From the NCBI GenBank assembly GCA_016234535.1, contig JACRBH010000116.1, positions 1 through 64,000 of the forward strand: 64,000 nucleotides of DNA, given 5' to 3'. The stretch is from Chloroflexota bacterium. Lineage in GTDB: Bacteria > Chloroflexota > Anaerolineae > Anaerolineales > Villigracilaceae. Within the stretch, counting starts at the first letter, position 1. Every line of letters begins with the position of its first letter. Below the pieces are notes generated by a model. The model did no database searches, was not told the origin of the DNA, and saw only the letters and a program-made list of their open reading frames with translations. The translations under genes were made by a program, and so were the position numbers. This document shows positions 8,658 to 48,032 of this stretch, in pieces.

Positions 8658-8771
8658 ATGTCGTTGCGAGGCGGTGCTTTTCCGCCGAAGCAATCTCCTC
8701 GTTTAACATGAGATTGCTCACCTGCACTTGCGTGCGGTGCAAGTGTCGGGCTGTCGCCCTCGCAACGACAT
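8658..8771. repeat. Family-1 palindromic repeat, copy B
   Basis: It is bounded by ATGTCGTTGCGAG (8658-8670) and its mirror CTCGCAACGACAT (8759-8771). It contains the GAAGCAATCTC / GAGATTGCT hairpin and the module CACCTGCACTTGCGTGCGG. It sits exactly between the metG attenuator and the metG ribosome-binding site, so it is transcribed in the metG leader. Confidence 0.9.
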
Positions 8772-26455: not shown

Positions 26456-27289
26456 ATGGCGTTTACAGCAGTGATGTTTGGATTGGTCTCGGCGGTCACC
26501 TGGGGCGCGGGCGATTTCAGCGGCGGCATGGCGGTGAAGCGCACCAATCCCTATGGCGTGGTGATCAGCGCGCACATTATGAGTTTATTTTTGATTGTTG
26601 CGCTGGCATTGATTTTCGGCGAGCGGATTCCTCCCCTGAGTGATTGGCTGTGGGGCGGCGCGGCGGGACTGTGCGGCGGCATTGGGCTGGCTCTGTTATA
26701 TCGCGCATTGGCTACGGGACAGATGAGCGTAGCTGCGCCGGTATCCGCGCTGGTCGCTGCGTCATTGCCAGTTTTGGTCAGCGCCTTTTCTGACGGATTG
26801 CCGCGCCTGATAACTCTGGCTGGCTTTATGCTTGCACTGACAGCAGTTTGGCTGATCTCTGGCGGGATTGGAATTGAGATACGCTTGAGTCATTTATATT
26901 TGCCTGTGATGGCGGGATTAACTTTTGGCGCTTTTTTTATTTTTCTTCATTATGGAAGCAGTACCTCGATCTTTTGGACATTAGCCGCAACACGTGTTGC
27001 TTCGATCTCGGGTCTGTTGGGATATTCCATCATCACTCACGAACCCTGGTTTCCAACACGGGACAGCTGGAAGTGGATCGCATTGAGCAGTGTGCTGGAT
27101 GCGGCTGGCAATACTTTTTACGCACTCTCGGCTCGTTATGGGCGTATGGATGTGGCCGCCGTGCTTGGGTCGCTTTACCCCGGCTCGACGGTTTTATTGG
27201 CATGGCTTGTTTTGAAAGAGCGCATCTCGCGCGTTCAAACCTTTGGTATTTTGATCGCGTTGGCCGCGATTGTGTTGATTACTTTATAA
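26456..27289 (+). CDS. EamA/DMT family permease
   Basis: The 277-residue protein has about ten hydrophobic helices in two EamA repeats (opening [20 protein letters not shown]; closing [18 protein letters not shown]). It belongs to the drug/metabolite transporter superfamily. It starts one base after the Fe-S subunit stop and lies before fdhA, so it is part of the formate dehydrogenase transcript. The placement could point to import of a substrate or cofactor precursor, but EamA proteins have wide specificity and the cargo cannot be read from sequence. Confidence 0.87.
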
Positions 27290-37366: not shown

Positions 37367-37453
37367 CGTCATTGCGAGCCCGATAGGGCGAAGCAATCTC
37401 CTTTTTGTGAGGGAGATTGCTTCGTCGGGAAGTTCACCCTCCTCGCAATGACG
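37367..37453. repeat. Family-1 palindromic repeat, copy E
   Basis: 87 nt bounded by CGTCATTGCGAG and CTCGCAATGACG, with inner GAAGCAATCTCC / GGAGATTGCTTC hairpin. It is the cleanest short copy in the window. Confidence 0.9.
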
Positions 37454-44521: not shown

Positions 44522-44523
44522 AT

Positions 44524-44574
44524 GGTAATTGGAGATTAGTAAATGGTAATTCCAATTACTAATCTCCAATTACC
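44524..44574. repeat. Perfect 19-bp-arm inverted repeat before moeA
   Basis: GGTAATTGGAGATTAGTAA (44524-44542) is exactly mirrored by TTACTAATCTCCAATTACC (44556-44574). It is a hairpin without T-run, followed by CGCAAATCGTAAAT words. Confidence 0.85.
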
Positions 44575-44611
44575 GTAATCGCAAATCGTAAATCCAAAAT
44601 CGTAAATAACC

Positions 44612-46681
44612 ATGTCTGTCTACCTTCACGATATTCCCCTTTCTCAAGCGCAGGCACGTTTGCGCGAAGCCTTGCAGGAGGCCGGTCTATGGCGTGTGCT
44701 CGGCGTTGAATCGATTCTGCTCGATGAAAACGCGCTTGGACGGGTAACTGCCGAGCCGATCTGGGCGACTGTCTCTTCGCCGCATTATCACGCCTCCGCG
44801 ATGGATGGGTTTGCTGTCATCGCGGAAAGTACAAGCGGAGCACAGCCTTCATCTCCCATTCAGTTATCATTGAGTAGTGAGCAGTTGTCAGTAAGAACAC
44901 AATATGTAGACACTGGCGACCCATTACCAGGCTGGGCGAATGCTGTCATCCCGATTGAGAATGTCGAATCGCTCGATGAAGACGGACGAATATCGTCCAC
45001 TGTCCGCGGTCCATCGTCCATCCGCATTCGCGCCGCAGTTGCCCCGTGGAGTCATGTCCGCCCGTTGGGGGAGGATATTGTCGCCACACAGTTGGTCTTG
45101 CCAACGGGTCACACCCTGCGCCCCGCGGACTTGGGCGCCATTGCCGCCTCTGGTCATCAGAAAATAAAAGTAGCGCGCAGACCTAAAGTTGCGATTCTGC
45201 CAACTGGCACTGAACTCGTCCCGATTGGAAGCAAACTTAAGTCTGGAGATATTCTCGAATACAACTCACTGGTGATGGCGGCCCAAATTAAAGCGATGGG
45301 CGGCGAGCCGACGCGTTATCCCATTACAAAGGATGATTTTGATTTAATTTGCGAGCGTGTTCTGGAAGCCGCGCAGACGCACGACCTTGTTTTGCTCAAC
45401 GCAGGCTCATCCGCTGGCGCAGAAGATTTTTCTGCAACAGTAGTTGAAAAATTAGGCCAACTACTCGTTCATGGAGTTGCCGTCCGCCCGGGTCACCCGG
45501 TAATCCTTGGCGTCATTGCGAGGAGCGCTCTTGTTCTTCGCGACGAAGAAATCTCCAACGATGAGGAGATTGCTCACCTGCACTGGCGTGCGGCGCAAGT
45601 GTCGGGCGAAGAACGCCCTCGCAATGACGTAATCCCAATCGTTGGTGTCCCCGGCTATCCAGTTTCCGCTGCGCTTACAGTTGACATCTTCGTCGAGTCC
45701 GTCATCGCCAAATGGCTGGGACGAAGGCCGAATGAACTTCCGGTTGAAACAGCCACACTCACGCGCAAGATCGTTTCTCCTGCGGGTGATGATGATTTCG
45801 TGCGAGTTGCTGTGGGTAAAGTTGGAGAGAAACTTCTCGCCGCGCCTTTATCACGCGGAGCAGGTGTTATCACCTCTTTGGTGCAAGCCGATGGACTTGC
45901 TTTAATTCCAAGCGGTGTGCAGGGATATGAAGCAGGCGAGCAGGTGAAAGTTCATTTGTATCGAAGCAGAGCCGAAATTGAAAGAACGATTTTCTGTATC
46001 GGTTCGCATGATCTCACGCTTGATTTGCTTGCTCAATTTCTTGCCGAACATGATCGCCGCTTTGCTTCTGCGAACGTCGGCTCGCAAGGCGGGCTTATCG
46101 CGCTTCGACGTGGCGAGGCGCATCTTGCTGGCTCGCATCTGCTCGACCCCGCGACGGGCGAATATAATATTTCATATATTCGTCAGTATATGCCGAATAT
46201 TCCCGTTAAAGTTGTTTCGTTGGTTGGGCGTGACCAGGGGCTTTTGGTTAAGAAGGGAAACCCAAAGGGAGTCAAAGCTTTGGGAGACCTCAGCAAGCCG
46301 CAGGTCCAGTTTATGAACCGACAGCGCGGAGCAGGCACGCGCGTCCTCTTGGATTATCATCTCAATGCGATGGCAATGTCCGCTGATTCCATCTTAGGCT
46401 ATACTCAGGAAGAGTTTACGCATCTTGGGGTCGCCGCCGCAATTGCATCAGGCCGCGCAGATTGCGGGCTTGGAATTGCCGCCGCTGCACAAGCGTTGGA
46501 TTTGGATTTTGTCCCGCTCTTTCAGGAACGCTATGACCTGGTGATTCCAAAAGTTTTTGCGGATGATAAATTGCTTGCGCCTCTCTTCGACCTGATGACT
46601 GATTCAGCATTTCGAGAGGCGGTATCCCAGCTGATGGGTTATGACGTGTCCGTGATGGGCACGATAATTTTGGAGGACTGA
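44612..46681 (+). CDS. moeA: MoeA molybdopterin molybdotransferase fused to a PBP-like domain
   Basis: A 689-residue fusion. Residues about 1-440 are MoeA: SPHYHASAMDGFAVIAEST, YVDTGDPLPGWANAVIPIEN, VRPLGEDI, VAILPTGTELVPIGSKLKSG, NAGSSAGAEDFS and GVPGYPVSAALTVDIF. Residues about 460-689 are a periplasmic-binding-protein-like domain (ALRRGEAHLAGSHLLDPATG, YNISYIRQYMPNIPVKVV, NRQRGAGTRVLLDYHLN), as in archaeal and some bacterial MoeA proteins that sense or deliver oxyanions. It inserts molybdate into adenylylated molybdopterin and would supply FdhA. About 40 residues between ILGVI and VGVPGYP are encoded by a family-1 palindromic repeat; two smaller repeat-like stretches lie at 44861-44891 and 44994-45020. 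Confidence 0.93.
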   Translation: MSVYLHDIPLSQAQARLREALQEAGLWRVLGVESILLDENALGRVTAEPIWATVSSPHYHASAMDGFAVIAESTSGAQPSSPIQLSLSSEQLSVRTQYVDTGDPLPGWANAVIPIENVESLDEDGRISSTVRGPSSIRIRAAVAPWSHVRPLGEDIVATQLVLPTGHTLRPADLGAIAASGHQKIKVARRPKVAILPTGTELVPIGSKLKSGDILEYNSLVMAAQIKAMGGEPTRYPITKDDFDLICERVLEAAQTHDLVLLNAGSSAGAEDFSATVVEKLGQLLVHGVAVRPGHPVILGVIARSALVLRDEEISNDEEIAHLHWRAAQVSGEERPRNDVIPIVGVPGYPVSAALTVDIFVESVIAKWLGRRPNELPVETATLTRKIVSPAGDDDFVRVAVGKVGEKLLAAPLSRGAGVITSLVQADGLALIPSGVQGYEAGEQVKVHLYRSRAEIERTIFCIGSHDLTLDLLAQFLAEHDRRFASANVGSQGGLIALRRGEAHLAGSHLLDPATGEYNISYIRQYMPNIPVKVVSLVGRDQGLLVKKGNPKGVKALGDLSKPQVQFMNRQRGAGTRVLLDYHLNAMAMSADSILGYTQEEFTHLGVAAAIASGRADCGLGIAAAAQALDLDFVPLFQERYDLVIPKVFADDKLLAPLFDLMTDSAFREAVSQLMGYDVSVMGTIILED
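45511..45629. repeat. Family-1 palindromic repeat, copy F, inside the moeA frame
   Basis: It is bounded by CGTCATTGCGAGG (45511 on) and CCTCGCAATGACG (to 45629). It contains GAAATCTCC / GGAGATTGCT and CACCTGCACTGGCGTGCGGC. The moeA frame passes through without a stop, adding about 40 residues (including RSALVLRDEEISNDEEIAHL). TAATCC occurs on both sides (45501 and 45631). Confidence 0.9.
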
Positions 46682-47129: not shown

Positions 47130-48032
47130 TCACGGTGCAGGCCAGGGGATATCTACCGGCAGTGAATACCCATGTTTTTCAACCGTATAAAGTTGACCAT
47201 ATGAAGGTGCGGCGCAGCCCTTTTCATCCTTAACCGTGTAGCTCGTGGTGAATTGATCGGGGTAGGAAAATGTCCGCCAAATCAAATAAGTATTCTGGCA
47301 AACAAATGCTTCAATAAAATAACCGCGATCCTTGTCGGTGGTCATCACCATTTGATCCCAACTGATGGTCACTTCATCGCCATTACGTACCGCGGATACA
47401 TTGTGCGGCGGGCCGTATTGATTACTGCCAATGGATTGCAAGTCGGGGATGATCTTGTTGAGATTGCTAATGTCACCGACCACATCCACCACCGAAGGCG
47501 CGACCCAGCAGAAGTAGTCGAGCTTGTCGAATTTGATGCGAAGCCAGTTGCTGTACACCGCTCTTTCGCGCACCGTACCAGCATCGCCGACAGCCAGATC
47601 TGCGGCATGAAGATATGCAACGGCAGGTCCATAACGGCAATGCGCCTGTTTGTTGACAGTTACACTTGGAAAGGCAAATGTCGGCGTGGCTGTGATCGTT
47701 GGGGTTACTGTAATCGTAGGTGTGAATGTAACTGTTGGTGTGAGCGTGAAGGTGGGGGTGGACGTTAGGGTCGGCGTCTTTGTCCATGATGCGGCTGTAG
47801 CTGTAATGGATGTGGCTGTTAAAGTTGCCTGTTCTTCCGGCGAAGGTCCGCAGGCGGTGAGGATGAATAGCGCGATCAATAAAGTGATGAAACTATGTCG
47901 TTGCGAGGGCGATTTTGGTCTTTGCCCGAAGCAGCCTCCTCTTACATGGGGAAATTTATTAACAGGAGGTTGCTTCGCCGCCGAAAGAGCATCGGCGACT
48001 CGCAACGACATGTGTAGTGAGGGCTGTTTCAT
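47130..48032 (-). CDS. Lipoprotein with Thr/Pro linker and SH3-like domain; signal peptide split by a repeat
   Basis: The frame starts MKQPSLH, then 39 codons that are entirely a family-1 repeat, then SFITLLIALFILTACG. Without the repeat the N-terminus would be a clean lipoprotein signal with a lipobox ending TAC. The start is supported by the 4-base ATGA overlap with the upstream gene. The mature part has a Thr/Pro linker (TPTFTLTPTVTFTPTITV), a bacterial SH3-like domain (AHCRYGPAVAYLHAADLAVG) and a C-terminal region of beta strands (VSAVRNGDEVTISW) resembling Fn3. SH3-like lipoproteins usually bind cell-wall or surface ligands. With the insert, export may fail or an internal start may be used. 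Confidence 0.75.
   Translation of the reverse strand: MKQPSLHMSLRVADALSAAKQPPVNKFPHVRGGCFGQRPKSPSQRHSFITLLIALFILTACGPSPEEQATLTATSITATAASWTKTPTLTSTPTFTLTPTVTFTPTITVTPTITATPTFAFPSVTVNKQAHCRYGPAVAYLHAADLAVGDAGTVRERAVYSNWLRIKFDKLDYFCWVAPSVVDVVGDISNLNKIIPDLQSIGSNQYGPPHNVSAVRNGDEVTISWDQMVMTTDKDRGYFIEAFVCQNTYLIWRTFSYPDQFTTSYTVKDEKGCAAPSYGQLYTVEKHGYSLPVDIPWPAP
47895..48011. repeat. Family-1 palindromic repeat, copy G, inside a lipoprotein signal sequence
   Basis: 117 nt (39 codons) bounded by ATGTCGTTGCGAG and CTCGCAACGACAT (plus-strand reading), with AAGCAGCCTCCTC / GAGGTTGCTTC-like inner pair. The frame is kept. Confidence 0.9.

Follow-up and report, generated by a model that had tools for sequence, protein, structure and literature searches.

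A surface loop of a PBP-fused MoeA in Anaerolineales-type genomes appears to have been overwritten repeatedly by CGTC-tagged REP dimers or heptamer arrays

How a dispersed palindromic repeat can come to lie within the reading frame of a conserved enzyme, and whether it arrived there once or many times, is the question raised by a moeA gene of a Chloroflexota bacterium. The gene lies in the window, that is, the whole stretch of 64,000 nucleotides that was analysed, which is contig 50 of a 4.8-Mb genome estimated to be 84% complete. A preliminary description of the window had proposed that a copy of a dispersed palindrome sits in moeA without introducing a stop, that it adds about 40 residues where other MoeA proteins have only a few, and that the protein continues with intact motifs into a PBP-like domain. 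These claims are borne out. The open reading frame is continuous through the palindrome, and it is matched by the domain profiles MoeA_N, MoCF_biosynth, MoeA_C and PBP_like, with a match to the NF011068 (PRK14498) profile of 721 bits against a cut-off of 534. The repeat covers 39 whole codons (Table 1), and its two 12-bp arms, at 45511-45522 on the forward strand and 45618-45629 on the reverse strand, are exact. As RNA, the 119 nt fold at -61.3 kcal/mol, compared with -39.2 (sd 3.7) for shuffled versions (z -5.9), and none of 200 shuffles folds as well.

Table 1. Coordinates of the features discussed (positions in the window, except for the flippase gene, which is numbered within its own locus)
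Feature	Position	Strand	Remarks
moeA fused to PBP-like domain, host gene	44612..46681	+	689 codons; domain profiles
CGTC-tagged REP dimer (119 bp, inverted), in frame	45511..45629	+	codon 300 (third base) to codon 340 (first base)
Left REP monomer (tag CGTC, tail CTCC)	45511..45556	+	by eye, using the monomer layout
Right REP monomer, inverted, with extra hairpin segment at ~45573-45606	45565..45629	-	by eye
Second variable loop, heptamer-like repeat DNA	44867..44902	+	7-26 residues in 37 of 106 loci readable by pattern
Repeat-like stretch of constant length	44994..45020	+	18 residues in 63 of 67 readable loci (of 106)
Intergenic hairpin of degenerate heptamers, directly 5' of moeA	44523..44611	+	DNA type that fills the loop elsewhere
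Wzx-like flippase with REP replacing a 9-residue linker	L045 791-2206	-	second in-frame case

The dispersed nature of the palindrome is equally clear. The 11-mer GTCATTGCGAG is found 291 times in the 4.8-Mb genome, compared with a single copy of the reversed control, and dispersed relatives of the 119-bp insert are 85-88% identical to it (G003 C59, G000 C69 and G000 C65). Matches to the insert are present in all 23 genomes of the genus that were searched, this one included, compared with one of 14 genomes of other families. The family was characterised in a genome sample of 247,616 bases, made up of the window, three loci sampled earlier and 53 stretches that surround matches 1 to 100 of the 291 listed. 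This sample holds 72 inverted pairs, or 70 without moeA and one chance match; the search sought pairs only, and two of the 72 have one arm in common (L067). The palindrome is such an inverted pair. In each element the CGTC or TGTC tag is followed by ATTGC, an inner hairpin that varies between copies, then GCAAT and finally CTCC. This layout fitted 107 of 142 halves and did not fit the remaining 35, and the length of the fitted halves is 30-66 nt with a mode of 43. The tag is CGTC in 66 and TGTC in 41 of the 107, the search pattern itself having required C/T GTC at its beginning. The first two stem positions are AT in 82 and GT in 19, where the pattern demanded GC(A/G)AT opposite. Tails starting with CTCC are the commonest (55/107). 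In most of 12 folded monomers the stem consists of a 5-bp outer part (ATTGC/GCAAT), an internal loop and a variable inner hairpin. The extra hairpin segment of the right monomer in moeA is also matched by dispersed copies. Rfam, searched over the window, gave no family at its cut-off. The lengths of the genomic dimers, divided by three, leave remainders of 2, 0 and 1 in 26, 23 and 21 of 70 cases, respectively.

Several associations of the dimers with other sequences were also observed. The REP dimer at 37367-37453 lies within a larger repeat (AACTTCCCGCAACCT ... GAAGTTATTAATTTA or reverse), which is perhaps a composite element and is of a type also found around the dimers of L001, L040, L048, L059 and L072. 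A further hairpin of the ACACCTGCACT...AAGTGT type, recognised by eye, is nested in a REP or heptamer array at ~45573-45606, in L240 (the flippase of G006) and in the moeA loop of L008. At 47896-48010, a dimer of the TGTCGTTGCGAG type overlaps the start of a lipoprotein-like ORF (47130-48032), the true start of which is probably downstream of the dimer.

Few of the 72 inverted pairs sit within conserved genes. By eye, one of the 70 other dimers lies well within another conserved gene, encoding a Wzx-like flippase (Table 1). Among the 20 flippase loci read, the repeat-bearing gene itself counted, 17 have a short linker, and REP-like sequence is found at the same position in G006 (by eye; decayed) and G002 (cut by the contig end). 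Their shared flanking residues suggest that the flippase REPs of L045, G006 and G002 are of common descent. Thirteen frames continue without a stop through a pair, with 40 or more codons ahead of it and 25 or more behind. Candidates that were set aside comprise a chance match at 26760-26842 in an EamA-like transporter frame (named by eye), the open frames of L036 and L062, in which by eye the repeat precedes the likely start, and those of L042, L051, L071, L082, L085, L086 (two) and position 8659 of the window, judged by eye to be spurious. As regards mobility, six matches to Y1_Tnp were found, five of them above the cut-off; one is adjoined by a dimer, on one side only, and another Y1_Tnp locus has a lone half-like match at a greater distance. 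A RAYT flanked by repeats, as in a REPtron, was not found among the six matches. The CGTC REP dimer is probably non-autonomous.

At the protein level, the insert coincides with a loop. The AlphaFold model of MoeA-PBP, built with 29 sequences, has a mean pLDDT of 72, and residues 307-337 are modelled at a pLDDT below 50, flanked by strands 295-303 and 340-346. When aligned with the solved MoeA structure 1UZ5, the query passes from residue 303 to 342 while the chain passes from 293 to 296, and the distance from RPGHPV to GVPGYP is 47 residues here, compared with 14-15 in some homologues without repeat DNA. The insert would be read as ~39 extra surface residues, which are probably disordered, in a protein that is presumably translated. 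The loop of the PBP-fused MoeA seems nearly free of constraint, and its filling would be neutral. In the second MoeA, a paralogue without PBP, the loop has 11 residues at each of the 24 same-genus loci read, this genome included, which argues that being a MoeA loop does not in itself make a target. The presence of this second MoeA in the genome may perhaps have eased the overwriting of the loop in the fused gene.

Sixty relatives were searched, including 36 genomes of the same genus. Among 126 loci examined (30 + 16 + 80), the loop was read by pattern in 123, of which 106 are distinct, with lengths of 11 to 50 residues. Ten of these 106 are of the paralogue type, four fetched as paralogues (L135-L138) and six misread by the pattern (L192, L198, L200, L209, L217 and L218); the fused gene's own loop measures 11, 11, 18 and 11 residues in L192, L198, L200 and L209, and was not read in L217 and L218. 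In L132, L197 and L207, where the motif is absent, the loops are short and open. Eleven of the distinct loops, of 11-12 residues, were excluded from the tree, which was computed from 95 genes with the loop removed and which, as a single-gene tree made by a quick method, is weakly supported in places. On this tree all REP carriers fall within one clade of 60 genes from Anaerolineales-type genomes. Within the clade, 11 genes have a full REP dimer in the loop, four a half REP, 37 a significant 7-bp-period repeat, six a short loop and two other sequence; the 35 genes outside comprise 20 short, eight heptamer and seven other loops. The half REPs include that of L151, joined to heptamer DNA, the weaker one of L166 and that of L158, with a possible remnant in L026; a half-REP in L204 and an upstream match in L023 were judged to be chance. 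REP-free homologues do not have the segment seen here, as the preliminary description anticipated, though many have other repeat DNA in its place. The insertion does not stand alone, however: it is one state of the loop, which elsewhere is occupied by heptamer arrays or by half REPs. An assembly error, the other doubt that it raised, is improbable, since dimers are present in 11 distinct moeA loops, including that of a 4.4-Mb genome assembled as one contig (G025, L015).

The heptamer arrays have a regularity of their own. Among the 43 non-REP loops that reach a length of 66 nt, self-match at lag 7 is 0.58, compared with 0.27 for shuffled sequence (z 37), and self-match at lag 14 is 50%. Division by seven of the lengths of non-REP loops in the clade leaves a remainder of 2 in 25 of 45 (chi-square P 4e-12, relatedness ignored), the length distribution peaking at 23 and at 30 residues. 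We infer that heptamer loops grow by 21 bp, or seven codons, with the frame kept, a process that would leave the lengths at this remainder and at these peaks. Of the two further repeat-like stretches pointed out in the preliminary description, that at 44861-44891 lies in a second length-variable loop, which in L016 reads SVISYQLSVISEQ, but that at 44994-45020 is of constant length and holds no insertion. The 80 bp upstream of moeA have a lag-7 match of 0.40, compared with 0.24-0.30 at lags well away from multiples of 7 (n 57). In addition, words of the form AATC(G/A)(T/C)AAAT are found within these 80 bp in 16 of 57 clade genes.

We propose, with a probability of roughly 60%, that REP dimers or heptamer arrays have time and again replaced the content of a tolerated surface loop, with repeated acquisition as the favoured history. 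A dispersed CGTC-tagged REP dimer would have entered the loop of MoeA that connects strand 295-303 to strand 340-346. The loop would have been overwritten many times, the degenerate 7-bp-period repeat becoming its commonest filling in the clade and a REP, whole or half, coming to occupy it in a quarter of the clade genes, with retention limited to versions that are in frame and free of stops. The half-REP loops (L151 with heptamer DNA and, more weakly, L166) look like partial replacement, and a swap at a hairpin or repeat array that was already present, by break repair or template switching, would be likelier than the action of a dedicated transposase; one hairpin or array would be replaced by another. 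The distribution on the tree is consistent with repeated acquisition instead of one ancient insertion: the presence of the dimer requires 10 changes for 11 carriers, compared with a shuffled mean of 10.6, and a single origin would require 27 losses. The 11 moeA dimers share both junctions, and the length of each leaves a remainder of 2 on division by three, compared with 26 of the 70 genomic dimers. There are 11 dimers in 5.3 kb of loop, compared with three in the surrounding 316 kb; the raw ratio of ~200 is no rate, since most of the surrounding sequence is coding and the inserts themselves count towards the loop length, but if ~15% of the surroundings are assumed to be intergenic the excess would still be tens of fold, to be lowered further by any shared descent among the copies. 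The identity between inserts (0.66-0.92 over aligned columns) exceeds that at fourfold-degenerate sites (0.30-0.69) in 55 of 55 pairs. Because the inserts are more alike than these sites, the sequences suggest that the REPs either entered recently or were refreshed by conversion.

The sources of the inserts were sought in the carriers' own genomes for four of the eleven (G005, G036, G030 and G000). Outside moeA, the G005 insert finds its best match in its own genome (90% over 99 positions, 123 bits), compared with at most 78 bits in eight other genomes searched. The best match of the G000 insert is a G003 copy at 149 bits, followed by a copy of its own at 140, in a search without G030. Nine of the eleven inserts are closer to some copy of the G000 pool than to any other moeA insert, the pool, with 70 dimers on both strands, offering more choices than the moeA inserts do. 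The G036 insert is not best matched in its own genome, and among nine genomes that of G030 is matched best by the G000 moeA copy (132 bits, compared with 106 for its best own copy), which favours descent in that pair. The last two cases speak against repeated acquisition, as do the sister genes L016 and L141, each of which carries a dimer.

It is possible, though we regard it as rather doubtful, that a single ancient REP was present at the base of the clade, that its junctions were kept while it was refreshed by conversion from dispersed REPs, and that it was lost or overwritten by heptamers in most lineages. This history is retained because two of its predictions are found. The first is the exactness of the junctions: the left end of each of the 11 moeA dimers falls on the third base of one shared glycine codon, the right end falls 14 nt ahead of the loop end in all of them, and each of the four half REPs has one junction matching those of the dimers. 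The second is the G at position -1, present at all moeA dimers and shunned by the genomic copies, with ~1% of 140 ends. Eleven independent insertions at one nucleotide position would be odd, and identical junctions are what common descent predicts. The half REPs of L151, L166 and L158, with the possible remnant in L026, and the proximity of the G030 insert to the G000 moeA copy can also be read as traces of such an insertion. However, it is opposed by the 27 losses that it demands, compared with 10 changes, and by a spread of carriers equal to that of shuffled ones; the G005 insert, closest to a copy of its own genome, would need conversion as well, and nine of the eleven inserts match the G000 pool better than any other moeA insert.

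It may tentatively be suggested that the loop is a true hot spot, where fixed junctions delimit the exchange of complete hairpin or repeat arrays, a 7-bp-repeat array giving way to a REP dimer or to half of one in a process directed by hairpins or microhomology. If this were true, CGTC REPs would spread by replacing existing repeat arrays and not by transposing into random targets. It is improbable that the loop is instead a cassette passed from species to species when its conserved flanks recombine homologously: the fixed boundaries, the absence of phylogenetic signal and the conservation of the flanking motifs would suit such transfer, but identity beside the loop (75-bp bins, 8 pairs) is not raised, L004 and L016 for instance having 0.73 on the left and 0.79 on the right, values not above those elsewhere in the compared stretch. 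Selection for the insert, as an mRNA hairpin slowing translation or as a useful protein segment, would accord with the stability of the RNA fold (z -5.9) and with REP ends encoding V-I-A and N-D-V, which suit the strands at the loop edges, but is very improbable given that the loop varies widely in sequence and length (heptamer DNA in 37 of the 60 clade genes, short in six) and that the REP interior resembles the dispersed pool.

For the movement of CGTC REPs, the loop offers states at known junctions with which models of mobility can be tested, since in sister genomes the same easily aligned loop holds an unrelated heptamer array, a half REP or a whole one. The loop also documents, in nature, the tolerance of a conserved enzyme and tandem repeats with lengths in seven-codon steps, so that a single protein loop records the spread and tolerance of poorly understood repeats. 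Literature searches found no report of Chloroflexota loops of the REP or heptamer kind, subscription papers lying mostly outside their reach. Among the matches listed for the literal string ATTGCGAG, none looked related by title; the same holds for extragenic palindromic repeats in Chloroflexi or Anaerolineae, where none of the matches listed was on topic by title, a weak test. Nothing was found on palindromic or intergenic repeats of Anaerolineae or on heptanucleotide repeats of Chloroflexi, and a search for palindromic in-frame insertion in moeA gave one genome paper only.

The palindromic elements of Rickettsia, described by Ogata and colleagues, are said to be read in frame within conserved proteins. 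The moeA insert resembles them as a palindrome that is in frame in a conserved gene and absent from homologues, but differs in that clear intragenic copies are rare in the genome sample, yet one loop is occupied in many genomes. The likeness to Rickettsia elements put forward in the preliminary description holds further: according to section 6 of the CGTC-REP survey, in the portion of its text accessible to us, RPE-6 and RPE-4 of Rickettsia conorii are the CGTC-tagged REPs CGTC-1 and CGTC-4 (Di Nocera et al, 2013; PMC3733652), so that intragenic CGTC REPs are already known. The accessible text describes a superfamily, mostly dimeric and mostly intergenic, with a CGTC tag (TGTC and CCTC being permitted variants), a stem starting with A-T and some intragenic copies. 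The elements described here share the CGTC or TGTC tag, the A-T start, the occurrence of dimers and that of some copies within genes. In place of its 8-9-bp stem with a loop of 4-5 nt, and of its CCA tail, we find a broken 5-bp stem with a variable inner hairpin and a CTCC tail. The families listed there come from five phyla, Chloroflexi not included, the latter being named for GTAG. That survey found no dedicated transposase for CGTC REPs, with which the absence of a RAYT link here agrees. It also reports one same-site case, in which recB of two Xanthomonas species carries REPs at roughly one position, compared with 11 distinct dimers at one junction in the present case. For the heptamers, the accessible part of a study of Beggiatoaceae reports TAACTGA and other 7-bp direct repeats in that family, in Cyanobacteria and in some Bacteroidetes, mostly intergenic near start codons and sometimes in frame as LSVISYQ, then mostly at protein ends (PMC4679880). 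The repeats of the MoeA loops are likewise 7-bp direct repeats read in frame, as in the second MoeA loop of L016. Unlike those of Beggiatoaceae as described there, they comprise several degenerate heptamers and occupy an internal loop of a conserved enzyme, in 37 of 60 genes, in alternation with REPs. The occupation of one loop repeatedly at fixed junctions, by REPs alternating with heptamer repeats, appears to be new.
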